DNA of 18,322 bases from Candidatus Saccharimonadota bacterium. GTDB lineage: Bacteria; Patescibacteriota; Saccharimonadia; Saccharimonadales; Saccharimonadaceae. Below are positions 3,588 through 17,754 of the stretch, piece after piece. The notes below the pieces were generated by a model. It was not told where the DNA came from. It ran no database searches and saw nothing but the letters and a program-made list of their open reading frames with translations. The translations under genes were made by a program, and so were the position numbers. How positions within the stretch are numbered: the first letter of the stretch is position 1; each line of letters begins with the position of its first letter. Where the stretch lies: the NCBI GenBank assembly GCA_030527565.1, contig JAUNAO010000006.1:1-18322 (forward strand). Reading direction: 5' to 3'.

Positions 3588-3597
3588 AGTATTATTT

Positions 3598-3626
3598 ATT
3601 ATACGCCCTTAGCACTCAAAATGCAA
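3598..3626 (-). promoter_or_regulatory. dnaJ promoter, close to the start codon
   Basis: On the minus strand a -35 TTGCAT (3621-3626), a 17-nt spacer and a -10 TATAAT (3598-3603) are followed by only 10 nt before ATG. With normal spacing the mRNA would start about 4 nt before the start codon. Confidence 0.75.
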
Positions 3627-3635
3627 GAGTGCTAA
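3609..3635. promoter_or_regulatory. CIRCE operator (HrcA binding site)
   Basis: The exact inverted repeat TTAGCACTC-N9-GAGTGCTAA is present, matching the CIRCE consensus bound by the heat-shock repressor HrcA. It covers the -35 and most of the -35/-10 spacer of the dnaJ promoter, a position that would block RNA polymerase. It also contains the TAG stop codon of the upstream PEGA-protein gene (3632-3634). hrcA itself is not in the window. Confidence 0.96.
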
Positions 3636-4555
3636 TTTCTAGTTTTATTTATCTCATCCAAAACCGAACTATCAACGTCAGGTACATTATAGCGTGACAA
3701 AATTGGGTACGGAGTCGCCAACATCTTCCAACTACTACCCTCTTTCTTCAAAATTGTCCGATAAACATATTCATATGGCTCCCCTTCCAAAGCCGTCGTC
3801 GACATCACCACCCCAACGTAGCTTCCTTCAAAGTTCTTTGTTTTTATAGAATACTCCGCTATTGTCTCACCGTATTTCTTTCTAATAAATTCTTCCGCCG
3901 ATAGCCCCTCATTCGCAACATCACTACTTACACCATCAAACTCCTCACCAAAATCATTTACGACAACCTTATAATCCGCAATCGATATTTCGTTATTGAA
4001 ATCATACAACTTTTCAATTGCCGATTCTAAATAAACTTGCTCGGCTTTTATATTTATTTGTGGTGTTCCGTCCTCTTGCATTGAATAACTTAGCGAAAAA
4101 ACCGCTTTATTGTATGGTAAATAATCTAAAATTGGATATTTTGTGTGCAATTTTTCCCCAGCCGCATCTTCCAAAGCCCCATAAATACCCTCAACATACA
4201 AATAATCTTTCAAATGTTGATTATAGATCTTCTCCCCTTCATCATCGGCATAATCCATCATTCCATAAATCTGTTTACTCTCCTCCGAAATTACAAATTC
4301 CTTCGTAAAAGTTTTAAAATGTTCGAGTTCTGCAACTACCTCATACATCCCAGGCTCCAAATACACCTTTGTATTATTTCCATAATTCTCCCCATTTAAT
4401 TTTACAACCGACGAAAACGGAGCAACATTAATACTAACTTCAATTTTACCTATCCGACTAATCATTATCACTACGGAATATACTATAATAGCTACAATCG
4501 CAACAACCGAACCAATAATTCCTATTTTTGCCGGTTTAGTTAAGTTCCTGAACAT
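3632..4555 (-). CDS. Membrane-anchored PEGA-domain protein of the T4SS operon
   Basis: 307 residues. Residues ~11-33 form one transmembrane helix with a short basic cytoplasmic N-terminus (MFRNLTKPAK), so the rest is predicted outside the membrane. Residues ~38-89 fit the PEGA fold: VSINVAPFSSVVKLNG, a turn, then LEPGMYEVVAELEHFKTF, with the EPG sequence where the family has its PEGA motif. The C-terminal half (~95-300) is unrecognised; its end (YEYVYRTILKKEGSSWKML) resembles an NTF2-like fold, which is also the fold of VirB8/TcpC scaffolds of T4SS. That link is inference. It is the last gene of the operon, behind a strong SD (AAGGAGG) and 8 bp after the stop of the peptidoglycan hydrolase gene. 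A cell-surface scaffold or wall-binding role in the secretion system is likely. Confidence 0.72.
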   Translation of the reverse strand: MFRNLTKPAKIGIIGSVVAIVAIIVYSVVIMISRIGKIEVSINVAPFSSVVKLNGENYGNNTKVYLEPGMYEVVAELEHFKTFTKEFVISEESKQIYGMMDYADDEGEKIYNQHLKDYLYVEGIYGALEDAAGEKLHTKYPILDYLPYNKAVFSLSYSMQEDGTPQINIKAEQVYLESAIEKLYDFNNEISIADYKVVVNDFGEEFDGVSSDVANEGLSAEEFIRKKYGETIAEYSIKTKNFEGSYVGVVMSTTALEGEPYEYVYRTILKKEGSSWKMLATPYPILSRYNVPDVDSSVLDEINKTRN

Positions 4556-4563
4556 TCTCCTCC

Positions 4564-5922
4564 TTATTTTTTCCTATACCAGCGCACAATTTCGCCGTCA
4601 TTATTTTTCTCCAGCCCTTCTCGACCCGCCATTGGAGCCCTCGCCCATCCATAAGGAGATGTCGAATCATAAGACGCTGACGCAATCGTAGAATCAAATC
4701 CTTCTATTTCGCCAACATAAATAAACGTATGTCCCGTCGTAAACGCCACATCCCCAGGTTGCAACGTACTCGTATCAATTACCTCCCCCGAACCGTTTAA
4801 CGCCGTCCAATTAGCCTTTACATAATCTTCCTGTGGCCCAGTATTACTTTTCTGCGGATTATATCCAGCATCCCAGCCGCTTTCCTGCACTAATGTCGTC
4901 ACAAATCCGCCACAGTCAATCCCAGCCACGCCCTCAACTGAGCCTCCAACATAATTTCCCTCCGACTGACGCTCCGCGACTATTTCCGCATACGCCGGCA
5001 TCCTATCTAAATATTTACCCTTATGATACTCCGGCCAGGCATACGCCACTACAAACTCCGCAAAAGTCGAAGCCGAACTACACGCCCCACCATATTCGTA
5101 ATTAATAAATTTATCATAATAAGCCTGTGCTTTTGCTAGTCTATTCGTATGATGTGTGCCACCTTTGCTACGATCGCCTCCTGGCCTCTCATACACATCC
5201 AAAACCCAATGCGTTGCGTCCGAAAGATTCGTCTGGTCATCAAATCCAGAATAACTACTATCTATTTCCTGTTTAATATATTCAATTTCAATTCCATAAA
5301 GTCTTCTAGCAACTTCTACTCCAACTTCTTGTATCAAGGCATCGGCAGAAAGACTATTATATTTACCTGGATCATTAAAATATTGTACAAGATCCGGAGC
5401 TTTTTCCTGCACGCTCTTGTATAAAGCGGCCCTTCTTCCGAACGACCATTGCACTAAACCTAAACCATACGATACTTTTGTGTTCCCACCAAGATCAAAA
5501 TGTCCATCAACATAATCCGTACTCGTATATGTTCTTGCGATATCTCTACCAGCATAAGTCGTCGCCGTCGTTGGTCCACTCGTCCAAAACAATCTGTATG
5601 TCTCGTACTCATGTTTTACCGGATTACCAACCCCCTCGCTTGCGATATTTCCCAACAACGCTGCCGCTTGGATCTCAGTAAAACCAACCGAAATCAACCC
5701 AGTCCACATCATCTCATCAGCCGTTTCGCCAGAAACCGAAGCTGCGCCATCTCCGACAAAACAACTAATCGTTTCCCCCGGATCATAAAACAAAATATTA
5801 TTCTCAGCAAACGCATCAAGTTGTGATTCAGACAATCCGAACGCCGAAACGCTCGGCAAAAACGTCATCAAAATCGCCAGCACCCCCGCAAACACTCTTC
5901 CTAAAATCCCTCGCTTCATCAC
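4564..5922 (-). CDS. Secreted two-domain peptidoglycan hydrolase (lysozyme-like + NlpC/P60-like), T4SS-associated
   Basis: Opens the cell wall for assembly of the secretion apparatus, the job of VirB1 in Proteobacteria and of CwlT/Orf14 of Tn916 in Firmicutes. An N-terminal signal peptide (basic MMKRGILGR, hydrophobic core, likely cut after VSA at ~27) is followed at ~65-275 by a domain like the phage-tail lysozymes: AALLGNIASEG with candidate catalytic E96, then SYGLGLVQWS and DATHWVLDVYERP. Residues ~285-452 look like an NlpC/P60 or CHAP cysteine peptidase: IDCGGF with C337, then LQPGDVAFTTGHTFIYVG with H398. The start is GTG at 5922 (GTGA, 4-bp overlap with virB4) or the next codon ATG at 5919 (1-bp overlap); the overlap implies translational coupling. 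The family calls rest on motifs; which peptidase subfamily is unsure. Confidence 0.85.
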   Translation of the reverse strand: MMKRGILGRVFAGVLAILMTFLPSVSAFGLSESQLDAFAENNILFYDPGETISCFVGDGAASVSGETADEMMWTGLISVGFTEIQAAALLGNIASEGVGNPVKHEYETYRLFWTSGPTTATTYAGRDIARTYTSTDYVDGHFDLGGNTKVSYGLGLVQWSFGRRAALYKSVQEKAPDLVQYFNDPGKYNSLSADALIQEVGVEVARRLYGIEIEYIKQEIDSSYSGFDDQTNLSDATHWVLDVYERPGGDRSKGGTHHTNRLAKAQAYYDKFINYEYGGACSSASTFAEFVVAYAWPEYHKGKYLDRMPAYAEIVAERQSEGNYVGGSVEGVAGIDCGGFVTTLVQESGWDAGYNPQKSNTGPQEDYVKANWTALNGSGEVIDTSTLQPGDVAFTTGHTFIYVGEIEGFDSTIASASYDSTSPYGWARAPMAGREGLEKNNDGEIVRWYRKK

Positions 5923-7733
5923 TTCCCCACCGGATTTGTCGTAATTAACCCCTCTTCCGTCTCCGACGCAATCACCTGAATATGTACATGATTCTGCCCT
6001 GCGAAGAACAAACCTTGCCCAACCGGGAAGTTCGCGAGCCTTCGCTTCTCTTCCTCTGTCAACTTAAACACATCCGACAAAACATCAACCGCCGACGCCG
6101 ACTGCTTCAAAAGCAACTGCATCGACGAGTTCGCCACAATCGCCCGCCCCATCTTCGAGCTCATAAAGTCCTCGACATCCTGCGTAATCGTCGTAAGCCC
6201 TAAATAATATTTTCGCGCCCGCTTTGCTAGCGAGAACAAGAAATTCGCCGAATCTTCGAACTGCATCAACTGCCACGCCTCATCAACAATCAAAATCCGC
6301 TTTTTCTGCTGCGCCCTTACTACATTCCAAATATGCGACAAAACAATATACATCGCCACCGGCCGTAGTTCATCTTCAAGATCCCGAATATTAAACACCA
6401 CCATCTGATTATTAATATCGACATTCGACTGCTGCGAAAAAATCCCCGCAAACGTCCCCGTCGTATACTTCCGAAGTCGCTGCGCTAGTTGTGGTCCCGA
6501 CCCTTCCATATGCAAAAGCGTATCATACAAATTCAAAATCGTCGGCGGCGTCGACTGATGCGTCAACGGATCTGCCGTAATCCCCGCTCGCGCATAAGTA
6601 TCGATCAAAGCCTGATCAAGATCCGCCTCTTCATTTGCGGTTAATGCCGGCACAACCTGCCCGCCCGCCGTCATCTGGTTCCCGCCAAGCATCAACCTAA
6701 ACAAACCATGGAGCGTCACCAAATTCGCGCGCAGAGCATCATTCGCATCCTCAGAATCCACCACCTTCGGTAAATCAAACGGATTAATCCGCACGTCCGA
6801 GTTCAAAGACAACCGAATATATGAACCACCGACCGCATCACACAACTTCTGGTACTCATTTTCCGGATCGATAATAATAATTTCCGACCCCACCATCATT
6901 GATCGAAGCGCCTCTAGCTTCACCGCAAACGACTTACCAGCACCAGATTTCGCAAACACAACCATATTCGCGTTCTCGAGCGAGAACCTATCGAAAATCA
7001 CAAGCCCGTTATTATGCATATTAATCCCATACAAAATCCCCTTATCCTGCGTCAAGTCCGCCGAGGTAAACGGGAACGATGTCGAAATCGCACCAGTATT
7101 CATATTCCGCCGAATCTGCAACTGGTCCGTACATTGTGGCATAATCGAGTTCATCCCCTGCTCCTGCTGCGAACTCGCAACCTTCGAGAAAATCATCTGC
7201 TGCCCAAAAATCGTTTCAATTTTCTGCTGCACAAATTTCAACTCATCCAACGAATCCGCCCAAATCGTCACATAAAGTCCAAACCGGAAAAACTTTTCCG
7301 CCCCAACCTGCAATTGGTCTCGCAACTCCTCCGCATCCGTAATTGCCGCCTCGAGCTCCGGATCCCGGACTCGCCCCTTCTCAGCATTCAAATTCATCGA
7401 AGCCTCAAGCTGCGTCACCTTCGTCTTCAAGTTTTTCATCACCACCGCCGACTCAACCGGATAAATATACATCGAAACATCAATTACTTCATCAATGTTC
7501 ACAATCGGCGAAATCCAACCCGTATAAAGAGACCGCGGATATCCATACACATAAAGCGTCCGCCCATATTTCGTCCCGAGCCTAAAATAATCCGAATGAA
7601 TCTCAATCGCCGCCGGCGAAATCAAATCACGTAAAGTATTCGTCCCCTGCTCGAACGCCTGCTGGATCTGCGCTGCCTCGAGCGCCTCATTCTGCGCCGC
7701 AATCTCTGCCGCCGTCAATTTTTTCTTCGCCAT
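5919..7733 (-). CDS. virB4: VirB4-type T4SS ATPase
   Basis: Motor ATPase of the secretion system, acting at the cytoplasmic face of the inner membrane in pilus assembly and transport. The 604-residue product has a Walker A motif, KSGAGKS at 262-268, in the typical context NMVVFAKSGAGKSF; IIIIDPENEY at ~285-294 is a further VirB4 signature; Walker B is LIVDEAW at 481-487 with D484-E485; the later TTITQDVEDF stretch (514-523) is also family-typical. Before Walker A there are ~250 residues of N-terminal material (RTLYVYGYPRSLYTGW), shorter than in classical VirB4 (~800 residues); the missing part matches the preceding gene. The ATG overlaps the stop of that gene by one base (TAATG), with GGAGG nine bases upstream. 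The stop is TGA, which shows that UGA is not recoded here. Confidence 0.95.
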   Translation of the reverse strand: MAKKKLTAAEIAAQNEALEAAQIQQAFEQGTNTLRDLISPAAIEIHSDYFRLGTKYGRTLYVYGYPRSLYTGWISPIVNIDEVIDVSMYIYPVESAVVMKNLKTKVTQLEASMNLNAEKGRVRDPELEAAITDAEELRDQLQVGAEKFFRFGLYVTIWADSLDELKFVQQKIETIFGQQMIFSKVASSQQEQGMNSIMPQCTDQLQIRRNMNTGAISTSFPFTSADLTQDKGILYGINMHNNGLVIFDRFSLENANMVVFAKSGAGKSFAVKLEALRSMMVGSEIIIIDPENEYQKLCDAVGGSYIRLSLNSDVRINPFDLPKVVDSEDANDALRANLVTLHGLFRLMLGGNQMTAGGQVVPALTANEEADLDQALIDTYARAGITADPLTHQSTPPTILNLYDTLLHMEGSGPQLAQRLRKYTTGTFAGIFSQQSNVDINNQMVVFNIRDLEDELRPVAMYIVLSHIWNVVRAQQKKRILIVDEAWQLMQFEDSANFLFSLAKRARKYYLGLTTITQDVEDFMSSKMGRAIVANSSMQLLLKQSASAVDVLSDVFKLTEEEKRRLANFPVGQGLFFAGQNHVHIQVIASETEEGLITTNPVGK

Positions 7734-8623
7734 TACCTCTGCCCTCCATTATTAGCCATCGGATTCGCTCCCGCCGTCCCAGGCGCCTCTCCCTTTCTTA
7801 CATACATCGTCGCCAATTTCGAAAAATCTACTAACGGCTCCCTCACTGCCGTATCCGGATTATTGAAATTATAATACAACTCCGCGAGTTCCCGCGTGTT
7901 CAATCGCACCGACTGAATTCCGATCTGAAACAACCCCGAAATCACCGTATCAACTCGGTTCGCAAGTTCCGACAAAGCCTTGTCATACGTCGCTCGGTCA
8001 ATCCGCGTCACCTCAACCCCCTTATTTTTCGAAAACGACGAGAAAAAATTCTTCGTCTGCTCAAGCGCCTTCTCCGCATCCGTCGAAGAATAATACGGAA
8101 TCACAATAAAGAACGACTTATCCATAATATTCGCTTCTTGCGACAAAATATCAATGAAGTTAATATAGTCGTCCATCAACACCCCGAGCAACATATTGTC
8201 ATTATTCCGCCGGATTTCGGACAACTTCTCAATATACGGCCCAATATCCACCCTCTGCGACCGCACCAAAATCTGCGTCGTAAACTTCAACGAATTCAAA
8301 AAATTCTGATAAGAATACTCGACCGCTTCCCGCTCAACATCCGACATAAGATCAAAGTTAATCGACTTACAAGCCACCACCGCCCTGAACGAGCCATCTT
8401 TCATAATCACCACATTATCGCGCAGCTCGGAAATAAGAAGTGTCGATTGCGTCGAAGTCGGCGATTCTTTATTCGGCGAAACCGGCGACGCAGCTTGCGC
8501 CGAAATCGCTGCCGAACCTAAATTCTGCATCGCCATATTTTGCGCCTGCGCATTCCCCGCCGCCATCATCTGCGGCTGCTGACCAGGTAAAACCATTTGT
8601 GGATTTTGCTGTTGTGGATTCAT
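7733..8623 (-). CDS. TraC-like protein, N-terminal domain of VirB4 as a separate gene
   Basis: The frame is open upstream to 8698, but the ATG at 8623 is preferred: it sits one base after the TAA stop of prgI and avoids a 74-bp overlap in which the upstream codons give an Arg-rich, shadow-like sequence. The 296-residue product starts with a Q/M/P/N-rich low-complexity segment (1-40). A globular domain ~60-270 follows, with LRDNVVIMKDGSFRAVVACKS, EYSYQNFLNSLKFTTQILVRSQ and FFIVIPYY, resembling the N-terminal domain of TraC/VirB4 ATPases. The tail (GTAGANPMANNGGQR) is disordered. No Walker motifs are present. With the shortened VirB4 just downstream it probably rebuilds a complete motor, linking the ATPase to membrane partners. 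Translation is likely coupled to prgI since no good SD is visible. Confidence 0.8.
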   Translation of the reverse strand: MNPQQQNPQMVLPGQQPQMMAAGNAQAQNMAMQNLGSAAISAQAASPVSPNKESPTSTQSTLLISELRDNVVIMKDGSFRAVVACKSINFDLMSDVEREAVEYSYQNFLNSLKFTTQILVRSQRVDIGPYIEKLSEIRRNNDNMLLGVLMDDYINFIDILSQEANIMDKSFFIVIPYYSSTDAEKALEQTKNFFSSFSKNKGVEVTRIDRATYDKALSELANRVDTVISGLFQIGIQSVRLNTRELAELYYNFNNPDTAVREPLVDFSKLATMYVRKGEAPGTAGANPMANNGGQR

Positions 8624-8624
8624 A

Positions 8625-9464
8625 TTAGTGTAGCGAGATAAATACCTCTCCCTCGTCCTTTCTATTAATTCGGTTAGCTTCCTTCGCAATCGTCGCAACA
8701 GAATAGTCAGAATTATTAGCTAATTCCATTATATCAGGTTTTTGCGCAAGCGGTTTAACATTTTCTGGCGTTGGCTGGACAACTGAAGCCGGCTTCTCCG
8801 CCTGATGAACCTCGCCCCGCGCTCCAACAATCGCTGGCGTTTCGTTCGAAACGACCGGTTGTAGACTCTCACTCCGTTCAATCGCCGCCCGCATCTCATT
8901 AATCGCCTCTTGATGTCGCTCAACTTTATCCTGATTAATCGCCTTGTCGATAACCTGCGACTTATAATTCATCGTATCGAAAATATCCGTCGCCTGATTC
9001 GCCTCCGCAACAAGATCATCTCGCATTAAATTTGAATTCATCGTCCTAATCGATTGTCCACCCGAGTCGACGACATCCGCAAGGAACGACAGCCGATGTG
9101 TCGCCTCTTCCTGCGTCAAATCACGCGTCCGCGTCTCCTCAACAATCTTTGGCGCCGTAATCGTTACAGTCGACTCTCTCTGCCCAGGCGTCCACACTCG
9201 CTTCCGCGGTTTTAGGTAGAACGAAACGATTGCCGCAAGATAAGTTTCCATCGGCTGATCTTTTCGAAGTGGCAACGCAAGCGCGAGGAGCAACAAAACT
9301 GGTGGCAACGGAATAATTGCGAGGAGCGGAAAAAGTTGCGCCAGCCCAACCGCCGCCGCGATTAAACCCGCCGCAATCAAAAGATAGACAAACTGCCGGA
9401 AACTAAACGGCCCGATTAACTTATCATCCGCCTCAACATCCTGAGGCACTTTATACTGCGCCAT
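8625..9464 (-). CDS. prgI: PrgI family protein (VirB3-like T4SS inner-membrane protein)
   Basis: Small inner-membrane subunit found directly before VirB4 in Gram-positive-type T4SS loci. The N-terminus is diagnostic: YKVPQDVEADDKLIGPFSFRQFVYLL (family hallmark VPQD...GPFS.RQ). Two transmembrane helices lie at ~27-45 and ~47-66, followed by a short basic segment (KPRKRVWTP). The ~190-residue tail from ~95 is long, charged and helical, longer than in most PrgI proteins (~110-150 residues in total), and may dock the TraC-like protein. It is the first gene of the five-gene operon. The extended -10 promoter ends 8 nt before ATG and no SD is visible, which predicts a leaderless mRNA. Confidence 0.9.
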   Translation of the reverse strand: MAQYKVPQDVEADDKLIGPFSFRQFVYLLIAAGLIAAAVGLAQLFPLLAIIPLPPVLLLLALALPLRKDQPMETYLAAIVSFYLKPRKRVWTPGQRESTVTITAPKIVEETRTRDLTQEEATHRLSFLADVVDSGGQSIRTMNSNLMRDDLVAEANQATDIFDTMNYKSQVIDKAINQDKVERHQEAINEMRAAIERSESLQPVVSNETPAIVGARGEVHQAEKPASVVQPTPENVKPLAQKPDIMELANNSDYSVATIAKEANRINRKDEGEVFISLH

Positions 9465-9472: not shown

Positions 9473-9481
9473 ATTATAGCA
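9473..9481 (-). promoter_or_regulatory. Extended -10 promoter of the prgI-virB4 operon
   Basis: TGCTATAAT on the minus strand lies 8 nt before the prgI ATG; no convincing -35 because that region is occupied by the T tract of the preceding terminator. Expected transcript start is ~2 nt before ATG. Confidence 0.65.
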
Positions 9482-10218: not shown

Positions 10219-13200
10219 TTACGCATCTGGATATAATGTCGGATCACCCAATAGCCCCTTCAAATACTCCCGAAGCTCAAAAACGTCCGCTGTTTGATTT
10301 TTCTCATAGAACTTCTCGAATTTATAACCAAGAAAACTATCCTCGCCAAACCAACCTACAATTTCGCCCATCGATTTTTCAAAGAACACTTCTACATCAT
10401 CATCTCTACATTCAGTGTAGAGGTCGTCAATTGTTGCCATATATGCACTCCTGTCCGCTTCAGTATAGTATCGCGTTGACGTTGCTTCATCATCTTCCAT
10501 AACTGGATCCGCTGCACCCTTGCGCTTTCGTTCTTCCTCATACGCACGTTTCTGCTCCTCACGGCTCTGTGTCAAATAATCATTAATTGCCACCTCATTA
10601 TCAAGGTTAAGCCAGCCACGCATCCAGTCTTTAGCGTTATTCGCCGCACCAGAACGTCGCGTACGGTAAATCTGCTCAAGCTTACCGCTATCTGCAAGAA
10701 TCTTACGAACACGTTTACCGGTAATCTCATCCTTCAGTGCCATCATCTCCTTGTCGCGCTTCATCTTTGCCTCACCAATTGGCGAATCACCATACTTGCT
10801 TTGAATCTCCGCTACTCGCGCAGTATATTCTCTACGACGCTCTGGATGATCTGGATTGTCTAACCATGCATTTGTCAAATGCTCATTAATCGCCGCTTTG
10901 TAATCACTACGCATACCCAAAATCTGCGCTGGCGTCTGATCTTTAAAGTATTTCTCCGTCTTATCGCGGAAGAACTTCTCCGTCTCCGCCCGTTCCTCGG
11001 CCGACAATCTCTTATCATCCCACTCCGCAACCAACTCGTAAACCGGATTTCCTTTTTCGTCTACAACTACTTGGTCGTTTGCATCTTTCTTTTGCTTGCG
11101 CGAATAGCCGGTCAGGAACGTCACGGCACTACTTAATTGCTCTGAACCAGACAAGTACTTAAGGCTCGCCGAAATAAACTGTGGTCCAATCGACTGCTCA
11201 ACTTCCCTACGTTTCGCCAAATAAGCTTCCTGATCAATTTTTCCAGTCTCCGGATCCGTATAGACTTTCTTTAAGCTGCTAACTAAGTTAGCATATGCCG
11301 TCCGTTCAACGCCATCAAATCCAGTACCCTCCATCAACGGCACCATTGAACGCTTCGCATACATTTTCTTACCATCCGGTTCAACATGATATCCCTCAAC
11401 GTATTCATCAAAAGTGACCTTCGCCTCTTTACGTTCATCCTCATTGAACATCTTCGCCGTCTCAAGATTAATATACTTACCAAACCTACGTAACGTCGGG
11501 TCAGCATCTTTAACCTCAAACATCAAGAACGAAGCGAGCGACTGTGATGCATGCGTCCCAAGCTCCAACCCACCATCAAGAATATCATCCATAATATTTT
11601 TTACAATATCCGTATCACCACGACGGTTAACCTCACGAAGACCAGCCAAGATCGCATCAATACTTTCCGAAGCTCTCTTATTCGGATTGAGCGACAACTC
11701 CCTAATCCTATATTCAAGATCCTTCGTCGGAGGCGTCATCTCAAAATACTTTTGGAATTTTGTCATAATAATCTTATTCTGTGTATCATAGGCTGCTGCC
11801 GCCGAAGCCGCCGCATAATGCGTAAAATCAACATCGCCCTCCATAATTTTACTCACATCACCATACCTATTAAGCGCCTCCTTGAATTGCTCCGATTGCA
11901 TATCGGCAAAGTGCCTCTTGTATTTCTCCGTATTTATATTAACGTTATCAAAATGCGCATTCATCGCCGCCTCCATGCGTTCATGGAAGCCCTTCGCGTT
12001 ATCAAGTTCAATCATTTCACCACGCGCCTGCTCCGCCTTCAACAAATCCGACGCCACCACATTCCTGATATCTAACCGATCAAGATCAGCCTTCTTAATC
12101 GTACCCAACTTCGCCCGGTAGCCATACCCCTTATTCATATTATTGCTATGGCGCAAAACTGTCTGCTGGTACTCCATCCCCCTCGCCTGATCCTCATACG
12201 CCCTCTCACCCCGCTTCGAAAGCACACCATCTAAATCACCCCCCTTATAATTCCGCTTCGCATCATACGCCAACCCCCGATTTTTCACCGTCGTCAAATG
12301 CCGCGTCGTCTCTTCACCTCGCGCAATCTTCCGGTTTTCAAGATACTGACGCAACTTCAAAGATGGCGTATACGCATCCCCGCGCGCCAAATTCTTCGCT
12401 CGCGTCAAATCGCGATGCGACGAAGCCCATGCCCGGTTTGTCGCCAGTGGCGCCGCTGCAAGCCTGTGCATACTCGCATTGATCGCCCCGAGGAACGTCC
12501 CAGACATCTTCATCAACTTCCAAGAGAAGAACAGCGGGAAAATCTGTACCGCCACCCCAAGCAGTAACGAGAAGCCGTCCTGTGCATTCGCAATAATCGC
12601 CCAACCCGCAAGCGAAGACGCCCCAAAGAGCAACGAGAACATTGGATAGAAAATCAACATCTTATATAACAGTTGTTTCCACTGCTTAAACCACCTATCC
12701 GTGTTTGGCAACATATACGCCACCATCGCCAGCGGAGCAATCATAATCAAAAGCACCACAACCGCCTGCCGAAGAGCAATCGTGATTAAACCGGTAACAA
12801 CCGCAACGATCGCCCCTAAAATCACTGGAATTAACATCCAGATCGCCCCCGTCTCAAACGCAATCACACCCCCACCAATCGCCAGTGCCGTCCCCCCAGC
12901 CATCGACTGATACATTTCTGCGAGCGCAATATGCGACTGACCATTATTAATCGCCATCCCCGACATTGTCGCCGCCTCAATCGACTCAAACAACCCTCTT
13001 AAACTATTCCCGACGATATTCGACAAATCCACCGCAACCGAACAGATTAAGAAGCTTAAATTAACAAGAATCGCCGTCACAATCAACTTCGGCAAAATCT
13101 TCTTCAGCCCGTAGTTATTAATCCCCCAACCTGTAATCTGCGAATAGATCACGACGAGCAGGAAGATAATAAATACGATATTTGTTACCGCCCTAAAATA

Positions 13201-13566
13201 CTTCCAAATCTCATAAATCGGCTGGCCGTCCTCGGCCTTTACCGGATTAATCAATAAAATATCTTCAATTTTCTCATACAGCCAGTCCACCGCCTCAGAA
13301 ATTTTCCCCGTTGTCGGACAGACCAACCAACCAATCGCCCCAAGGCTATTCTCACAAGAAGTACTCCCAGTCGTCACCCCAGTATTATTCGTAGCAGTAT
13401 TATTCGTCGTCGTCTCTGTTGTCGTCGGCTGGTTAACTGCCGGCTCCGCATATACTGGCGCTGTGAAAAATGCACTAAATAAAACTAAGATACTGAAAAA
13501 ACACCCAAAAAAGGCCTTTGCTAGTTTAGATTTTGAGAATTTTTTCACTACCATAGTTATATACAC
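10219..13566 (-). CDS. VirB6/TrbL-like T4SS polytopic channel protein with very long C-terminal domain
   Basis: Inner-membrane channel subunit of the secretion system. The 1115-residue product has a signal peptide (basic KKFSKSKLAK, hydrophobic core, cut near VYA at ~40) and a T/N-rich linker (41-70). Hydrophobic segments lie at ~127-145, ~160-183, ~222-245, ~246-265, ~267-288, ~302-322 and ~328-349. The block with IALRQAVVVLLIMIAPLAMVAYMLP and NTDRWFKQWKQLL is typical of TrbL/VirB6. From ~375 to the end there are ~740 hydrophilic, mostly helical and highly charged residues that I cannot assign; on topology they may be cytoplasmic. The start is GTG at 13566, 12 nt after AAAGGGAGG; ATG at 13554 is the alternative. 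It is read from a perfect consensus promoter, divergent from the pilin operon. VirB6 identity is from topology and context, so moderately sure. Confidence 0.85.
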   Translation of the reverse strand: MYITMVVKKFSKSKLAKAFFGCFFSILVLFSAFFTAPVYAEPAVNQPTTTETTTNNTATNNTGVTTGSTSCENSLGAIGWLVCPTTGKISEAVDWLYEKIEDILLINPVKAEDGQPIYEIWKYFRAVTNIVFIIFLLVVIYSQITGWGINNYGLKKILPKLIVTAILVNLSFLICSVAVDLSNIVGNSLRGLFESIEAATMSGMAINNGQSHIALAEMYQSMAGGTALAIGGGVIAFETGAIWMLIPVILGAIVAVVTGLITIALRQAVVVLLIMIAPLAMVAYMLPNTDRWFKQWKQLLYKMLIFYPMFSLLFGASSLAGWAIIANAQDGFSLLLGVAVQIFPLFFSWKLMKMSGTFLGAINASMHRLAAAPLATNRAWASSHRDLTRAKNLARGDAYTPSLKLRQYLENRKIARGEETTRHLTTVKNRGLAYDAKRNYKGGDLDGVLSKRGERAYEDQARGMEYQQTVLRHSNNMNKGYGYRAKLGTIKKADLDRLDIRNVVASDLLKAEQARGEMIELDNAKGFHERMEAAMNAHFDNVNINTEKYKRHFADMQSEQFKEALNRYGDVSKIMEGDVDFTHYAAASAAAAYDTQNKIIMTKFQKYFEMTPPTKDLEYRIRELSLNPNKRASESIDAILAGLREVNRRGDTDIVKNIMDDILDGGLELGTHASQSLASFLMFEVKDADPTLRRFGKYINLETAKMFNEDERKEAKVTFDEYVEGYHVEPDGKKMYAKRSMVPLMEGTGFDGVERTAYANLVSSLKKVYTDPETGKIDQEAYLAKRREVEQSIGPQFISASLKYLSGSEQLSSAVTFLTGYSRKQKKDANDQVVVDEKGNPVYELVAEWDDKRLSAEERAETEKFFRDKTEKYFKDQTPAQILGMRSDYKAAINEHLTNAWLDNPDHPERRREYTARVAEIQSKYGDSPIGEAKMKRDKEMMALKDEITGKRVRKILADSGKLEQIYRTRRSGAANNAKDWMRGWLNLDNEVAINDYLTQSREEQKRAYEEERKRKGAADPVMEDDEATSTRYYTEADRSAYMATIDDLYTECRDDDVEVFFEKSMGEIVGWFGEDSFLGYKFEKFYEKNQTADVFELREYLKGLLGDPTLYPDA

Positions 13567-13602: not shown

Positions 13603-13631
13603 ATTATAGCACGCATAAGCTTTTTTGTCAA
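13603..13631 (-). promoter_or_regulatory. Perfect consensus promoter of the VirB6-like gene
   Basis: TTGACA (13626-13631), 17-nt spacer and TATAAT (13603-13608), with an added TGC extension of the -10, read on the minus strand. This is the best sigma-70-type promoter in the window. A GCC/GGC-rich imperfect inverted repeat in the leader (about 13575-13600) surrounds the SD and could modulate translation. Confidence 0.88.
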
Positions 13632-13652: not shown

Positions 13653-13680
13653 TTGATTTTCAAAAAATCTATGCTAATAT
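13653..13680 (+). promoter_or_regulatory. Promoter of the pilin operon, leaderless
   Basis: -35 TTGATT (13653-13658), 16-nt spacer and -10 TAATAT (13675-13680) with a TGC extension. Exactly 6 nt separate the -10 from ATG, so transcription is predicted to start at the A of the start codon. It faces away from the virB6-like promoter. Confidence 0.75.
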
Positions 13681-13686: not shown

Positions 13687-14418
13687 ATGAAAAAGATTTT
13701 AGTCTTCGTGGCCCTCATTCTCGCCACTTTTACCACCTTTAACCTGATATCCAGTCCATCTGTCTCTGCGGCGGCCAGCACCGAAACTTTCCTCGGTATG
13801 CCAGCTTGGAACTATGGTCTAGATACTAGCACTATCACCAATACCGAAGGAATTAAACAAGCCATTGTTATGATTGTTTCGAACGTTCTTCTCGCAATCA
13901 CCGTTGCTGCTACTTATCTTATTCTAGCCTACACTATTTATGGTGGCTATCTCTATATCTTTTCTAATGGCGACCCAGGCAAAGCTGCTGGCGGGAAGAA
14001 AACTCTAACCCGCGCCTTTATCGGCATGGCCGTAGTCGCTTCTACCTACATTATCCTAAATGCTATCCGTATTGCCTTTATGGGCGCAAATGGAAATTTT
14101 GCTGCAAACTGCACAACAAGCGAATGTCTTACGGCTACGGATTTCGTTACCAACATCCTCGGTTGGTTCATTGGCATTGCCGGAATCGTCGCCGCTATCT
14201 TCCTCGTTGTTGGAGGGATTGGTTATGTTACCTCTGCCGGTGACGCTAGTAAGCTCCAAAAATCAAAAAATACCATTATGTATGCTTTGATCGGCCTCGC
14301 CATCGTCGGTCTCGCCCAAGTTATTGTCGTATTTGTCTCAAATATGGCAAGAGAGGCGACTAAAACTTCCTATCTCGACAACCAAACATTAATAGCAAAG
14401 GAGTATCATGAAAACTAA
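13687..14418 (+). CDS. T4SS pilin-like protein with two tandem pilin domains
   Basis: 243 residues. A signal peptide (MKKILVFVALILATF, likely cut after VSA at ~28) is followed by two copies of the small two-helix domain of CPR T4SS pilins (VirB2-like, Pfam T4SS_pilin type). Copy 1 spans ~55-130, with YGGYLYIFSNGDPGKAAGGK between helices. Copy 2 spans ~152-222, with VGGIGYVTSAGDASKLQKSK. Both show the pattern GG-x2-Y-x2-S-x-GD-x3-K followed by K-x-T/N and a second helix. Between the copies C142 and C147 may form a disulphide. The tail (TKTSYLDNQTLIAKEYHEN) is polar. It is the first gene of the operon and overlaps the next by 11 bp. Whether it is a structural subunit or an assembly factor such as a pilus base or cap cannot be told. 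Confidence 0.85.
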   Translation: MKKILVFVALILATFTTFNLISSPSVSAAASTETFLGMPAWNYGLDTSTITNTEGIKQAIVMIVSNVLLAITVAATYLILAYTIYGGYLYIFSNGDPGKAAGGKKTLTRAFIGMAVVASTYIILNAIRIAFMGANGNFAANCTTSECLTATDFVTNILGWFIGIAGIVAAIFLVVGGIGYVTSAGDASKLQKSKNTIMYALIGLAIVGLAQVIVVFVSNMAREATKTSYLDNQTLIAKEYHEN

Positions 14419-15179: not shown

Positions 15180-15206
15180 AAAATATCCCCTTCGGGGGAT
15201 ATTTTT
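15180..15206 (+). terminator. Intrinsic terminator of the pilin operon
   Basis: An 11-bp perfect stem, AAAATATCCCC / GGGGATATTTT, closes a TTCG tetraloop and runs into a T-run. Same UUCG loop design as the terminator at 9497. Confidence 0.95.
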
Positions 15207-15333
15207 GTAGTGGAATAACTTAACTTTTCTAAGCGAAACGTAAAGAAAACGCCAAGCTGGCGTTTTCAGAACGAGCACCCGTAAAGACGGGCTGCGAGTG
15301 GGTTTCGCGTGGAAAGTTAAGTTATTCCACAAC
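15207..15333. repeat. Large nested inverted repeat; structured RNA or MITE-like element
   Basis: Outer arms GTGGAATAACTTAACTTT (15210-15227) and its exact complement (15313-15330) make 18 perfect base pairs, with two further pairs beyond a mismatch (GT/AC). Inside lie a 5x4 internal loop, a 7-bp stem GCGAAAC/GTTTCGC (15233-15239 with 15302-15308), and two hairpins: GAAAACGCC-AAGCT-GGCGTTTTC (15245-15267) and CCCGT-AAAG-ACGGG (15278-15291). As RNA this is a three-way junction on a long handle. It fills the gap between the pilin terminator and the hsp20 stop. On the minus strand the first hairpin is followed by TTTACG and may terminate hsp20. No promoter and no target-site duplication is evident. 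Confidence 0.75.
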
Positions 15334-15359
15334 CCTTAAGTGTATGACCCAAAAACCGA

Positions 15360-15854
15360 TTATTGAATTGCGATTTTCTTTGGTGCTTCAACCTTTTCTT
15401 TCTCGAAAGAAATCGTAAGAACACCATCTTTAAGTTCCGCTTTTACGCTGTTCTCGTCCTCGCGTACTTGAACCGGCAAAGCAATCGTTCGCGTAAATTC
15501 ACCCCAATAACATTCCTGAATGTGCCAACGCGTCGTCTGTTCGTCTTCCCCGCCCGAAAGCACACCCGAAATCGTCAGAATATTGTCGGAAATACTGACA
15601 TCAAGATCAGTTTTCGAAATTCCGGCGGTACGGGCTTTTACTACTAGTTTATCGGCGGTTTCATAGACATCCACTGCAAGCTGTCCAGGAAAGTCGTCGC
15701 CGTCTACCCACTCATCTTCGACTGGTTCGCTAACTTCTACCGGCGCCTCTTCCGTCACTTCTTTTGGCGCAGCAACAAGTTCATCGTCGCCTCCAAGAAA
15801 TGCCGCAGCGAGGTCGTCTTCCATCAGCAAATCGTCACTGTTTGTACGAGCCAT
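15360..15854 (-). CDS. Small heat-shock protein, Hsp20/alpha-crystallin family
   Basis: ATP-independent holdase that binds unfolding proteins. 164 residues: an acidic, disordered N-terminal arm (1-55, many E and D), then an alpha-crystallin domain from ~58 (LAVDVYETADKLVVKARTAG, DLDVSISDNILTISG, ECYWGEFTRTIALP, VKAELKDGVLTISF). The signature A-x-L-x-DGVLTI-x-F is complete near 138-150. The short tail PKKIAIQ carries the C-terminal I-x-I anchoring motif. The ATG follows GGAGG. Its promoter has a palindrome centred on the -10, so control differs from the CIRCE-controlled dnaJ. It is divergent from comF. Confidence 0.94.
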   Translation of the reverse strand: MARTNSDDLLMEDDLAAAFLGGDDELVAAPKEVTEEAPVEVSEPVEDEWVDGDDFPGQLAVDVYETADKLVVKARTAGISKTDLDVSISDNILTISGVLSGGEDEQTTRWHIQECYWGEFTRTIALPVQVREDENSVKAELKDGVLTISFEKEKVEAPKKIAIQ

Positions 15855-15877
15855 ATTTCCTCCACACTTATATTGTT

Positions 15878-15896
15878 ATGCTTTATTATAAAGCAT
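15878..15896. promoter_or_regulatory. Palindrome over the hsp20 -10, candidate operator
   Basis: ATGCTTTA-TTA-TAAAGCAT, perfect 8-bp arms with a 3-bp centre, covers the -10 of hsp20 and lies ~25-40 bp before comF. It does not match CIRCE or the HspR/HAIR and CtsR sites as I know them. Confidence 0.6.
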
Positions 15897-15913
15897 CTTT
15901 GTTGTAAAATCAA
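15885..15913 (-). promoter_or_regulatory. hsp20 promoter
   Basis: -35 TTGATT (15908-15913), 17-nt spacer and -10 TATAAT (15885-15890) on the minus strand; the ~25-nt leader holds the GGAGG ribosome site. Confidence 0.78.
15905..15910 (+). promoter_or_regulatory. Possible -10 of comF
   Basis: TAAAAT lies 9 nt before the comF ATG and would give a leader of about 3 nt. The -35 is poor (TTTATT at 15882-15887) and overlaps the hsp20 palindrome, so both genes could share one regulator. Confidence 0.35.
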
Positions 15914-15919
15914 GAGGAA

Positions 15920-16606
15920 ATGCAATTAAATGTAAAAAATACAACACTTCCGAGCCTTCAAGACCTCATCGCTCCCCACTCCTGTCGGGGTTGTAATCGT
16001 ACAGGTAAGATTCTTTGCGAGTGTTGTAAAAATAACTTGGCTGCACAAACTTTTACTTTTTGTCCAAATTGCAAAACTAAAAACAAAACCGGCAAATGTA
16101 AAAAATGTAAACTCCCGCCAATCTTCGTCGTCGGTGAGCGAAACAGCCTCCTCGGCACTCTTATCCACGATTTTAAATATAATTCCGTTCGCGCCCTCGC
16201 AAAACCACTCGCCGAACTTCTAGATAGAACTCTCCCGAATCTTCCCGAAAACACTGTTATCGTTCCCCTCCCAACCGCAACCCACCACATCCGCGCTCGC
16301 GCTCTCGACCATACCTACAACATCGCAAAACACCTCGCAAAACTTCGTGGTTTAAAAGTTGAGAAACTTCTTCTCCGCACAAAAAATACCGTCCAGGTCG
16401 GTAGCGATGAAAAAACTCGCCTAAAGCAAGCCGCCTCAGCTTTTGAGCTTAACGAAACACTAAAAATTGACAATTCAAAAACTTATCTCCTAATCGACGA
16501 CGTTTGGACAACCGGTGCTAGCATGAAAGCCGCAATCAAAAAACTCCGCGCGGGCAGAGTTTCGAAAATCATTGTCGGTATTTTAGCCGTTAATAGCCTG
16601 AATTAA
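15920..16606 (+). CDS. comF: ComF family phosphoribosyltransferase-like protein
   Basis: ComF-type proteins are needed for DNA uptake in naturally competent bacteria and belong to the type I phosphoribosyltransferase fold. The 228-residue product begins with a zinc-ribbon region of paired cysteines: C22/C25 (SCRGC), C33/C35/C36 (LCECC), C48/C51 (FCPNC) and C60/C63 (KCKKC). The PRTase domain follows with FKYNSVRALAKPLAELL, VIVPLPTATHHIRARALDH and the PRPP-binding loop YLLIDDVWTTGASM at ~188-201. The start ATG follows AAGAGG at short spacing. The last 24 bp overlap convergently with the fourth pilin gene. Its presence beside a T4SS supports, but does not prove, a link with DNA import. The biochemical reaction of ComF is not established. 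Confidence 0.93.
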   Translation: MQLNVKNTTLPSLQDLIAPHSCRGCNRTGKILCECCKNNLAAQTFTFCPNCKTKNKTGKCKKCKLPPIFVVGERNSLLGTLIHDFKYNSVRALAKPLAELLDRTLPNLPENTVIVPLPTATHHIRARALDHTYNIAKHLAKLRGLKVEKLLLRTKNTVQVGSDEKTRLKQAASAFELNETLKIDNSKTYLLIDDVWTTGASMKAAIKKLRAGRVSKIIVGILAVNSLN

Positions 16607-16999
16607 CGAAGCAGTTTCTTTTGGGGTCTCCGAGCTTGGTAATGCCGTAATCACAAAATTTACAATCGCAAATGCGAGAAACGCAACAATCAAACCGATA
16701 ATTGCATACAAAACTGTATTTTTTGCGTCAGTCACTTTCTTCGAATCGCCGCCCGACACTACGTACTTAATACCACCGATAATCAACATAATCACCGCCA
16801 CAATCCCTACAATATAAAGAATCGTGTTCGTAATTTGCTTAAAAACGCCGGTCTCGCCAAACAAATCACTCGGACAACCATCACACTGCCCAGCCTGCGC
16901 ACCTTCCTGTAAAGATAACGCCGATACGTTTGTTGCCGCCATAAATGTAAAGACCCCACACATCAAGATTGGTAAAACTAATTTCACAATGTTTTTCAT
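16583..16999 (-). CDS. T4SS pilin-like protein (fourth paralogue, distant)
   Basis: 138 residues. A signal peptide (MKNIVKLVLPILMCGVFTFM) is probably cut after VSA at ~27. A short mature head has a CDGC pair (39-42). Two helices (~62-80 and ~95-118) flank IGGIKYVVSGGDSKKVTDAK, the same pilin loop as in the divergent operon, and a polar tail of ~20 residues (PSSETPKETASLIQAING) follows. It is separated from the other pilin genes by hsp20 and comF, is read on the opposite strand, and is less similar to them than they are to each other. An extended -10 promoter sits 9 nt before ATG and there is no SD, predicting a leaderless mRNA. Confidence 0.9.
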   Translation of the reverse strand: MKNIVKLVLPILMCGVFTFMAATNVSALSLQEGAQAGQCDGCPSDLFGETGVFKQITNTILYIVGIVAVIMLIIGGIKYVVSGGDSKKVTDAKNTVLYAIIGLIVAFLAFAIVNFVITALPSSETPKETASLIQAING

Positions 17000-17008
17000 A
17001 ATAATCCA

Positions 17009-17036
17009 ATTATATCACAAAAATCCCCGTTGTCTA
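17009..17036 (-). promoter_or_regulatory. Promoter of the fourth pilin gene
   Basis: -35 TAGACA (17031-17036), 16-nt spacer and TGA-extended -10 TATAAT (17009-17014) on the minus strand. Nine nt to ATG predicts a leader of about 3 nt. Confidence 0.72.
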
Positions 17037-17039
17037 CAT

Positions 17040-17061
17040 AAAAAATAAGCCCAAAGGCTCA
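17040..17061 (-). terminator. Terminator downstream of tRNA-Ser
   Basis: On the minus strand TGAGCC-TTTG-GGCTTA forms a short 6-bp stem followed by six T. It would end the tRNA transcript after the duplicated 3' segment. Confidence 0.65.
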
Positions 17062-17082
17062 TGGCGGAGGGTGGGAGATTCG
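17061..17082 (-). repeat. Exact 22-bp duplicate of the tRNA-Ser 3' end
   Basis: Identical to 17126-17147, i.e. the last 21 nt of the tRNA (T-loop end, T-stem 3' strand, acceptor 3' strand, discriminator and CCA) plus one flanking base. It resembles an attachment-site remnant left by an integrase using a tRNA gene. The two copies are 65 bp apart, and the spacer is filled by two hairpins (17083-17097 and 17105-17128). Confidence 0.8.
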
Positions 17083-17104
17083 TTCGCGTAGCGCGAATCG
17101 GCCA

Positions 17105-17128
17105 CATTTTTGTCGCAAGACAAAAATG
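17105..17128. repeat. 10-bp hairpin abutting the tRNA 3' end
   Basis: CATTTTTGTC-GCAA-GACAAAAATG is perfect and overlaps the CCA end of the tRNA gene. On the minus strand it is the sequence just after the mature tRNA and could guide 3' processing. The T-run lies inside the stem, so it is not a standard terminator. Confidence 0.6.
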
Positions 17129-17219
17129 GCGGAGGGTGGGAGATTCGAACTCCCGCGCCAGGTCGCCCCAGCCTAACGATTTAGCAAACCGTCCCCTTCA
17201 GCCACTTGGGTAACCCTCC
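17127..17219 (-). tRNA. tRNA-Ser (anticodon GCT), CCA encoded
   Basis: Minus-strand sequence from 17219 folds as a class II tRNA. The acceptor stem is GGAGGGT with ACCCTCC. The D arm has the GGC context, and the anticodon loop holds GCT (TTGCTAA), reading AGC/AGU serine codons. A long variable arm follows, then the T arm with GTTCGAATC. The discriminator is G, followed by an encoded CCA. Length is 93 nt with CCA, normal for tRNA-Ser. A TGATAGAAT extended -10 (17229-17237) lies 9 nt before the 5' end, so the 5' leader is only about 3 nt. Confidence 0.96.
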
Positions 17220-17228
17220 GTTCCATCT

Positions 17229-17237
17229 ATTCTATCA
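17229..17237 (-). promoter_or_regulatory. Extended -10 of the tRNA-Ser promoter
   Basis: TGATAGAAT on the minus strand, 9 nt before the tRNA 5' end; no good -35 at the usual distance. Confidence 0.5.
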
Positions 17238-17271
17238 CACTTTCCCTTTTTCTTCTACAATTAAAAATCCG

Positions 17272-17280
17272 TGATATAAT
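17272..17280 (+). promoter_or_regulatory. Extended -10 of the 17287 gene, leaderless
   Basis: TGATATAAT ends exactly 6 nt before ATG, so the predicted +1 is the start codon itself. The -35 region is weak (TTCTAC, 17253-17258). Confidence 0.7.
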
Positions 17281-17286
17281 AAACTT

Positions 17287-17754
17287 ATGGCAAAGAAGTT
17301 TGAAGCCGTCTCGTGGGACGCAGAAGAATACGTTATTAGAAGTCGTAATACTTGGTGGTACGTCGGTCTCGTTGTCGTGACCCTCGCGCTCTCCGCCCTC
17401 GCCGTTTGGCTTGAAGGCTGGACCTTCCTTATTTTAATTATCTTAAGCGCTATTACCATTCTGGTTTCAAATCTCCGTCCACCACGCAAACTTCACTACA
17501 CTCTTGATAAAAACGGCTTAACTGAAGGTACAAAACTCTACAAATACGAAGATTTCAAAGCCTTCGGCATCCTTAAAGAAGAGGAACATTTCTCCGCTAT
17601 CTTAATCCCGAAGAAACGCTTCGGCCTGCAAGTTAAAGTTTATTTCCCGATGGGCAGCGGCGAGGCTATCGTCGACGCTCTCGGCGCTCGTCTCCCTATG
17701 GAGGAAGTAAAGCTCGACGTTCTCGATAAGATTGTAAACTTCTTGCGAATTTAA
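17287..17754 (+). CDS. Two-helix membrane protein with PH-like C-terminal domain, function unknown
   Basis: 155 residues. The N-terminus (MAKKFEAVSWDAEEYVIRSRNTWWY) is cytoplasmic-like. Two hydrophobic helices (~25-41 and ~45-60) form a hairpin closed by a basic NLRPPRK. The remainder (68-155) is strand-rich: LHYTLDKNGLTEGTKLYKYEDF, then FSAILIPKKRFGLQVKVYFP, ending in a helix (LDVLDKIVNFLRI). This resembles bacterial PH-like domains that follow a membrane hairpin; that reading is inference. The layout also recalls PrgI (two helices near the N-terminus), but the VPQD and GPFS motifs are missing. No SD; the extended -10 abuts the ATG. The next gene starts 48 bp downstream behind its own promoter. 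Confidence 0.85.
   Translation: MAKKFEAVSWDAEEYVIRSRNTWWYVGLVVVTLALSALAVWLEGWTFLILIILSAITILVSNLRPPRKLHYTLDKNGLTEGTKLYKYEDFKAFGILKEEEHFSAILIPKKRFGLQVKVYFPMGSGEAIVDALGARLPMEEVKLDVLDKIVNFLRI

Follow-up and report, generated by a model that had tools for sequence, protein, structure and literature searches.

Promoter boxes adjoining start codons in the window

Can a promoter lie so close to a start codon that the mRNA opens with, or almost with, the codon itself, and does the same genome then use two modes of translation initiation? Six sites in the window (the whole 18,322-nucleotide stretch that was analyzed), which comes from a gut member of the Saccharibacteria, raise this question. An earlier note had placed -10 boxes 6, 6, 8, 9, and 10 nt ahead of the start codons at 13687, 17287, 9464, 16999, and 3587, and a reading of the sequence gave exactly these gaps.

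On the plus strand, TGC-TAATAT (13672..13680) stands 6 nt before the ATG of pilin 1 (13687..14418; T4SS_pilin, PF18895), in the pilin-1 operon, and TGA-TATAAT (17272..17280) stands 6 nt before the ATG of a conserved 155-amino-acid protein with no Pfam match (17287..17754). Both genes are predicted to be leaderless. On the minus strand, TGC-TATAAT (9473..9481) precedes by 8 nt the ATG of prgI (8625..9464), encoding a PrgI-family T4SS protein (PF12666) predicted to be leaderless or to have a leader of about 2 nt. The gene that begins at 8623 shares bases with the stop codon of prgI (TAATATG), which suggests that it is translationally coupled to prgI. Also on the minus strand, TGA-TATAAT (17009..17017) is found 9 nt before the ATG of pilin 4 (16583..16999; PF18895; predicted leader of about 3 nt), with a -35-like TAGACA at 17036-17031. 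The dnaJ gene (2667..3587, minus strand; PF00226 and PF01556; predicted leader of about 4 nt) has a TATAAT (3598..3603) without a TG, 10 nt from its ATG. Immediately upstream of this box is a perfect inverted repeat, TTAGCACTC-N9-GAGTGCTAA (3609..3635, minus strand), which we take to be a CIRCE/HrcA operator.

The sixth site was rightly flagged as doubtful in the earlier note. A TAAAAT box (15905..15910, plus strand) is indeed present 9 nt before the ATG at 15920, with a purine run, AAGAGGAA, ahead of the codon. The gene (15920..16606, plus strand) encodes a comF-like phosphoribosyltransferase with a Pribosyltran match below the Pfam cutoff; the name ComF was taken from that note. We dropped it as a clean leaderless case and retained it as near-leaderless only, with a predicted leader of about 3 nt.

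The gap was 6 nt at just two of the six sites. Only the sites at 9464, 16999, and 17287 passed a strict, cross-validated matrix with a cutoff of 8 bits. Those at 13687, 3587, and 15920 fell below it because the hexamer is off consensus or the TG is missing; the case for them therefore comes from orthologues (see below).

Other genes of the window have a different arrangement. The leadered virB6-like gene has a consensus promoter, TTGACA-17-TATAAT (13603..13631, minus strand), and starts at either GTG 13566 or ATG 13554, with an SD-like GGGAGG upstream. SD regions are found ahead of hsp20 (TGGAGGAAAT, 15855..15864, minus strand) and rny (AGAAAGGGAAGAA, 2296..2308, minus strand).

The promoter-adjoining start codon is a genome-wide pattern

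We scanned 325 kb of the assembly, comprising 274 genes whose starts were assigned without regard to the motif. Exact TATAAT was found before the ATG at a gap of 6 nt in 55 genes and at 7 to 10 nt in 20 genes, with a single case at 0 to 5 nt, compared with 5 of 4,429 internal-ATG decoys. The motif has the form of an extended -10 element, TRTGNTATAAT. The scan of distances against shuffled upstream regions that the earlier note had proposed was performed with dinucleotide-shuffled upstream regions of 273 genes in 300 rounds. At gap 6, TGNTATAAT was observed 45 times against a shuffle mean of 0.01, and at gaps 6 to 10 it was observed 62 times against a mean of 0.1 and a maximum of 2. Across the entire assembly, the gap-6 peak reached 106 matches, compared with 6 for the reversed pattern and 19 at a spacing of 13. 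The strict matrix was passed by 82 of the 274 genes (about 30%, or three in ten) and by 8 of the 4,429 decoys. With the same code, no TATAAT was found at gaps 6 to 10 in 116 genes of Escherichia coli K-12. These results confirmed that promoter-adjoining start codons extend beyond the window to the genome as a whole.

The motif as a promoter and the probable position of +1

We consider it very probable, from the sequence patterns described here, that these genes are leaderless or have leaders of 1 to 4 nt and are driven by an extended -10 promoter adjoining the ATG. The most tenable alternative is that transcription starts farther upstream and that the AT-rich element is a non-SD ribosome-loading signal of the Bacteroidetes type. 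Noncanonical AT-rich sites of this sort are known in other phyla, according to the portions of PMC5397173 and PMC9581028 consulted. However, the motif is that of an extended -10 element whose offset peaks sharply at 6 nt, with hardly any cases at 0 to 5 nt. Moreover, a TATAAT or TGNTANNNT box lies 7 to 11 nt before 12 of 19 tRNA genes, 10 of them with exact TATAAT; the motif therefore behaves as a promoter. Just 2 of 81 leaderless-type genes had a further -10-like site between -100 and -23, compared with 24 of 115 SD-led genes. We regard ribosome loading as an improbable explanation of the element.

If the element is a promoter, +1 of the gap-6 genes most probably coincides with the A of the ATG, because the -10 is extended and the base directly before the ATG is a pyrimidine, as expected where transcription begins. 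This pyrimidine was present in 56 of 60 gap-6 genes vs. 53 of 115 SD-led genes; the pyrimidine-then-A signature was not seen at gap 7 (9 genes). On both strands of the 325 kb, TGNTATAATN6 was followed by ATG 56 times and never by GTG, TTG, or CTG, whereas the starts selected on the basis of a strong SD comprised 67 ATG, 7 GTG, and 7 TTG codons. The same string was followed by ATA 15 times and by ATT 6 times in the 325 kb, so some such promoters do not abut an ATG. As for a downstream signal, codons 2 to 4 were hardly richer in A (0.47 in leaderless-type genes vs. 0.45), and we make no claim for one.

According to the proposed mechanism, the position of TRTGNTATAAT would make RNA polymerase initiate at the first base of the ATG or slightly before it, and the mRNA would thereby begin with, or nearly with, a 5'-terminal AUG. 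The ribosome would read this AUG without SD contact, most likely by the 70S route. Most of the remaining genes of the same genome use SD-led initiation.

Two nearly exclusive start signals

The earlier note had also proposed two initiation modes in this lineage, and the distribution of SD sequences bore this out. An SD core was found in 1 of 82 genes with the -10 signal vs. 115 of 184 genes without it (Fisher's test, 6e-25), with 8 genes of intermediate matrix score left out of the 274. Among the SD-core patterns, TGAT was disallowed, since it is contained in TGATATAAT and inflates the class of genes with both signals. Sequence comparison thus supports two nearly exclusive start signals, a proximal extended -10 or an SD, used genome-wide and mostly kept per gene. 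As 69 of the 184 genes without a -10 signal also lacked an SD core, the two modes do not cover all genes. The geometry, namely, 6 nt between the -10 and the ATG, a pyrimidine and an A at -1 and +1, and the tRNA calibration, points to leaderless transcripts; at gaps of 7 to 10 nt, the leader would be about 1 to 4 nt.

No 16S gene was found in the source assembly or in the four genus members searched, and the anti-SD of the genus is therefore deduced from SD use only. Among 12 relatives searched, 5 had a 16S gene, and a regex for the tail GATCACCTCCTT matched at just one of these five loci. Ribosomal protein S1 was rejected as a divider of genera with high and low signal, since 20 of 20 genomes of the family had an S1-like match that was partial and scored below the family cutoff.

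That the leaderless genes include T4SS and stress genes, as the earlier note stated, was correct, but it did not amount to a functional rule: both kinds also occur with an SD. The SD-led T4SS genes include virB4, pilins 2 and 3, and probably virB6, whose start is uncertain; SD-led stress genes are hsp20 and grpE. Pfam was searched with 30 of the 82 leaderless-type genes and 30 of the 115 SD-led genes. The leaderless-type sample had broad functions, many of them housekeeping, and 7 of its 30 genes had no Pfam match, so a rule of T4SS or stress enrichment was rejected. Ribosomal proteins numbered 0 in the leaderless-type sample vs. 6 in the SD-led sample; at most, given these small numbers, they prefer an SD.

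Conservation of the start signal among orthologues

Start codons of orthologues were set by protein alignment alone, and a -10-like box was sought 6 to 11 nt upstream. The box was present in all 78 prgI orthologues and all 37 orthologues of the 155-amino-acid protein gene, with no SD in either set (0/78 and 0/37). It was found in 54 of 57 orthologues of dnaJ, 58 of 61 of comF, 48 of 59 of pilin 4, and just 28 of 59 of pilin 1. The SDs attributed earlier to hsp20 and rny were equally constant (64/64 and 46/46), and the virB4 control had an SD in 80 of 80 orthologues (79/80 with another SD pattern). Judged by these alignments, the initiation mode of a gene is largely conserved, with a switch in some orthologues (pilin 1 and dnaJ). 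Pilin-4-like genes appear SD-led in several other genera; orthology among pilins is uncertain.

These data bear on a second alternative, in which the true start codons lie downstream and ordinary promoters serve normal 5' untranslated regions, with the SD inside the assumed N terminus. An SD-preceded in-frame start within codons 5 to 50 does exist in 6 of 82 leaderless-type genes, but this is no excess over the 10 of 115 SD-led genes. At all 78 prgI loci, the orthologue begins at the projected residue, and the sharp 6-nt offset to ATG, never GTG or TTG, would lack an explanation. We hold displaced start codons to be even less probable than ribosome loading. Chance, by which AT-rich intergenic DNA would yield TATAAT near an ATG, accounts for a background (the 6 reversed-pattern matches and the 19 at a spacing of 13), but it is already contradicted by the shuffles at gap 6, by decoy rates of 0.1 to 0.2%, and by the positions conserved between orthologues, and its probability is negligible.

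Spread across lineages

The signal was present in 24 of 24 sampled members of the genus. Counts of TATAAT had suggested a restriction to this genus; we withdrew that conclusion, as genus G291 has as many (126). In many other genera, counts of TATACTN6ATG showed TATACT in place of TATAAT, so much of the gradient between lineages is a change of dialect. Outside the class but in the same phylum, 234 of 260 sampled genomes exceeded the reversed-pattern control and 125 of 260 did so at a binomial P of <0.01, as composition-controlled pattern counts made without gene starts. We tentatively suggest, as a possibility that we do not favor, that leaderless initiation could be the ancestral major mode in Saccharibacteria, and perhaps in much of Patescibacteria, with reduced ribosomes strictly accepting a 5'-terminal AUG and with -10 dialects (TATAAT vs. 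TATACT) coevolving with the start codon. Such coevolution is proposed because one base would be both the transcription +1 and the first translated base.

Discussion

Patescibacteria make up a large, mostly uncultured share of bacterial diversity and have small ribosomes; we found little literature on their translation start. Should initiation at a 5'-terminal AUG apply to about 30% of genes, SD-tuned gene finders may misplace starts. Antibiotics that hit leadered initiation only, a kind noted in the consulted part of PMC9581028, would also act unevenly. The orthologues that switch mode (pilin 1 and dnaJ) offer a natural series for shifts between leaderless and SD-led genes.

In Actinobacteria such as Mycobacterium, a large minority of genes are leaderless, with the promoter next to the start and SD-led genes mixed in. 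The genome studied here shares all three features. In mycobacteria, GUG also serves as a start codon of leaderless genes, unlike in the present genome, where GTG or TTG was used at 0 of 56 gap-6 sites. Leaderless genes exceed 20% of genes in Actinobacteria, according to the consulted part of a study of TA-led bacterial genes with a proximal Pribnow box (Zheng et al. 2011, PMC3160421). As described there, TA-led genes carry TANNNT some 12 bp ahead of the start codon, lack an SD, and occur beside SD-led genes, as here, and the TAtaaT of medium-GC groups resembles our TATAAT. The present -10 differs in being extended (TRTGN) and in its very sharp 6-nt offset. The groups that the consulted text names do not include Saccharibacteria; one genome there is "unclassified." The GeneMarkS-2/StartLink leaderless class, as given in the consulted part of PMC9581028, covers 21.6% of bacterial species, with up to 40% of transcripts predicted to be leaderless; a sizeable share of predicted leaderless genes is common to that class and this genome. 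The clades tested in that study were Archaea, Actinobacteria, Enterobacterales, and FCB, and Patescibacteria are absent from the consulted part. We found no published account of leaderless genes in this lineage in the literature searched. The mechanism itself is already known; its strictness and frequency here seem unusual, and the lineage has received little study.

-10-like boxes in the window and its relatives

The window, contig 47 in a 61-contig assembly totaling 594,968 bases (completeness, 95%), encodes rny, dnaJ, a lysozyme/NlpC protein, a TraG/VirB4-like protein, PrgI, hsp20, a ComF-like protein and, according to Pfam, four T4SS_pilin proteins. A 155-aa protein had no Pfam match, and the TrbL/VirB6-like match was weak, covering only residues 135 to 327, under the Pfam cutoff, of a protein of 1,111 aa (10219-13554); no Pfam match was found in the rest of it. 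The protein with Phage_lysozyme2 and NlpC/P60 domains (Pfam; 4564-5919) lies inside the T4SS gene cluster and is likely a cell wall enzyme of the secretion system.

An earlier note had placed -10-like boxes just before five or six start codons, and direct reading of the sequence confirmed all six, with the following gaps between the last base of the -10 and the start codon: pilin 1 (13687; gap 6, hexamer TAATAT), the 155-aa gene (17287; gap 6), prgI (9464; gap 8), pilin 4 (16999; gap 9), dnaJ (3587; gap 10) and comF (15920; gap 9, hexamer TAAAAT). The sites at 9464, 16999 and 17287 passed a strict cross-validated extended -10 matrix. Those at 13687, 3587 and 15920 failed it, so the case for them rests on conservation in orthologues. 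The strongest consensus promoter of the window, TTGACA-17-TATAAT (13631-13603), belongs to the leadered virB6-like gene.

A scan found 535 relatives of the VirB4-like ATPase in named genomes, the top one with 98% identity (isolate S19M_St_42). The best 80 of the 535 were taken for locus comparison; 78 of these records were titled Saccharibacteria, one "uncultured bacterium" and one Nomurabacteria, with ruminant gut as the source in many titles. Orthologue starts in the 80 loci were set by protein alignment alone, and boxes were scored at gaps 6 to 11 (wider definition) or 6 to 10, with 8 to 11 for comF (narrower). The orthologues are related sequences, so the counts are not independent events: a box was present in 78/78 (wider) or 77/78 (narrower) for prgI, 48/59 or 47/59 for pilin 4, and 28/59 or 19/59 for pilin 1, and, under both definitions, in 37/37 for the 155-aa gene, 54/57 for dnaJ and 58/61 for comF. 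As for the controls, a Shine-Dalgarno (SD) sequence preceded rny (46/46), hsp20 (64/64) and virB4 (80/80, or 79/80 with another SD pattern), and a near -10-like box was found in none of the rny or virB4 orthologues and in 1/64 for hsp20 (gap 12).

Some dnaJ and pilin 1 orthologues had longer leaders, roughly 20 to 40 nt by eye. The pilin 1 promoter of relatives, often TGNTAATAT, was seen by eye either about 6 nt or some 20 to 35 nt before the ATG, which suggests leader gain or loss. Pilin 4-like genes look SD led in several other genera, with pilin orthology uncertain; genes may thus switch between modes. The gene after prgI has a possible start overlapping the prgI stop as TAATATG (8623-8627) and an SD core in just 13/75 orthologues; termination-reinitiation, a third mode, is possible there. 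The divergent hsp20/comF intergenic region (65 bp; 15855-15919) contains, by eye, a near-palindrome, ATGCTTTATAATAAAGCAT, and a strongly conserved box, TAAAATCAAG.

Genome-wide spacing of TATAAT and start codons

In the whole assembly, there were 106 matches to TATAATN6ATG (52 + 54) and 6 to its reversed form; with the spacing left free between 1 and 12, the counts were 245 and 80, and a spacing of 13 gave 19 and 8. A gene-based test covered the window and 20 further stretches, together 325,423 bases with 274 genes; the gene calls and starts were our own, made with a simple coding score and the 5'-most ATG without considering the motif. Exact TATAAT was found 55 times at gap 6, once in total at gaps 0 to 5, 8, 4, 6 and 2 times at gaps 7, 8, 9 and 10, respectively, and 0 to 3 times per position from there to gap 45. 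Internal ATG decoys had it at gap 6 in 5/4429 cases. In the comparison with shuffled upstream regions proposed in the earlier note, TGNTATAAT was found at gap 6 in 45 cases versus a mean of 0.01, and at gaps 6 to 10 in 62 versus 0.1 (273 genes, 300 shuffles). The extended -10 matrix at gaps 5 to 11 was passed by 82/274 genes (30%) and 8/4429 decoys. With the same code, TATAAT at gaps 6 to 10 was found in 0/116 genes from three 50-kb stretches of E. coli K-12.

A TATAAT or TGNTANNNT box also lay 7 to 11 nt before the mature end of 12/19 tRNA genes (exact TATAAT in 10 of the 12); the 19 include one with an anticodon called as four bases, possibly a false positive. Since translation has no role at tRNA genes, this argues that the motif is a promoter. 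The textbook discriminator between the -10 and +1 is six bases, so the A of ATG would be +1 in gap 6 genes. The logo of 65 such genes (looser hexamers) read TRTGNTATAAT, then six bases, then ATG, and T or C directly preceded ATG in 56/60 gap 6 matrix genes versus 53/115 SD-led genes. At gaps 8 to 10 (13 genes), A was the seventh base after the -10 in 10/13; at gap 7 (9 genes), the pyrimidine-then-A signature was not found. Gaps below 6, at which the transcript start would cut into AUG, were nearly unused. The codon after TGNTATAATN6 was ATG in 56 cases, ATA in 15, ATT in 6 and GTG, TTG or CTG in none; starts chosen by a strong SD were ATG in 67, GTG in 7 and TTG in 7.

Two nearly exclusive modes

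The 82 genes passing the matrix are called leaderless type here, a class that includes gaps 7 to 10 and hence predicted leaders of 1 to 4 nt. An SD core was present in 1/82 of them versus 115/184 genes without a -10 signal (Fisher, 6e-25, with 8 intermediate-score genes excluded), and 69/184 had neither. Proximal -10 and SD are thus two nearly exclusive modes. A second -10-like site at -100 to -23 was found in 2/81 leaderless-type versus 24/115 SD-led genes, and SD-preceded downstream starts showed no excess in the former (6/82 versus 10/115). Divergent neighbors were commoner in leaderless-type genes (29/82 versus 19/115), and a same-strand gene within 30 nt was rarer (24/82 versus 56/115); in these 24 cases, the promoter must be located within the end of the upstream gene or next to it.

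Functions were sampled with Pfam in 30 of the 82 leaderless-type and 30 of the 115 SD-led genes. Matches were found in 23/30 of the former, with housekeeping functions frequent among them: RuvB, FtsK, Obg GTPase, an RF-1-type release factor, three aminoacyl-tRNA synthetases, RelA/SpoT, an EPSP/MurA-type enzyme, Mur ligases, a ParA-like ATPase, a T2SSE ATPase and a histidine kinase. The SD-led sample included ribosomal proteins (6/30), NusG, GrpE, DnaN and PNPase-like proteins. One SD-led gene of this reduced genome (L048:5772-6908) encodes a reverse transcriptase domain (RVT_1).

The earlier note had counted stress genes among the leaderless ones, which was supported, with stress genes found in both classes. 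A Clp-type AAA gene, outside the list of 82, has a CIRCE-like repeat and an exact TATAAT at gap 6 without TGN, giving two likely heat shock genes with a proximal -10; hsp20 and grpE, however, are SD led. At dnaJ, the CIRCE-like operator (3609-3635) is a perfect TTAGCACTC-N9-GAGTGCTAA, and a close variant is found at the Clp-type gene (L039:2290), each directly upstream of the start-abutting -10. This arrangement suggests near-leaderless heat shock genes under HrcA-type control.

Spread across genus, family and phylum

All 24 sampled genomes of the same genus had 66 to 124 TATAATN6ATG matches versus 2 to 24 for the reversed pattern, and 174 other genomes of the family had 5 to 126. In a phylum sample of 286 genomes, four members of the genus ranked at the top (106, 124, 113 and 118). 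This ranking alone is misleading, given the TATACT counts in other genera: among 61 family genomes, TATACTN6ATG occurred 2 to 8 times in four genomes of the genus, 25 to 58 times in 37/57 outside it (controls, 2 to 16) and 3 to 21 times in the remaining 20. The fifth base of the -10 thus varies by genus within one family, consistent with a lineage-specific promoter dialect. By eye, prgI had a clear box at 6 to 10 nt in 15/20 family genomes, several as TATACT, one weak box and no box in four. TATAAT or TATACT at gaps 6 to 10 preceded 7% to 28% of sampled gene starts within the family (two genera with 8 genes each), with an SD in at most one such gene per genus. Six of seven named genomes reached via the loci had 91 to 126 matches (UBA2866, 108), and the Nomurabacteria-titled one had 42. 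In the rest of the phylum, 234/260 genomes exceeded the reversed-pattern control, 125/260 at P < 0.01; these pattern counts, with their composition-correcting control, are suggestive only.

Comparison with known leaderless genes

Searches of the open-licence literature found no report of leaderless genes in Saccharibacteria, the Candidate Phyla Radiation (CPR) or TM7x, which is weak evidence, and nothing relevant on Shine-Dalgarno sequences in Patescibacteria or transcription start sites in Saccharibacteria. CPR are described as retaining YchF, which has been connected with leaderless translation (PMC12641178). Leaderless use, up to 40% of transcripts, is predicted for 21.6% of bacterial species, as cited by StartLink (PMC9581028). 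Among 953 bacterial genomes, Zheng et al. 2011 (PMC3160421) describe 207 with leaderless genes that have a Pribnow box about 12 bp upstream of the start. The kind of leaderless gene proposed here would therefore be one already known, in a lineage apparently absent from those reported.
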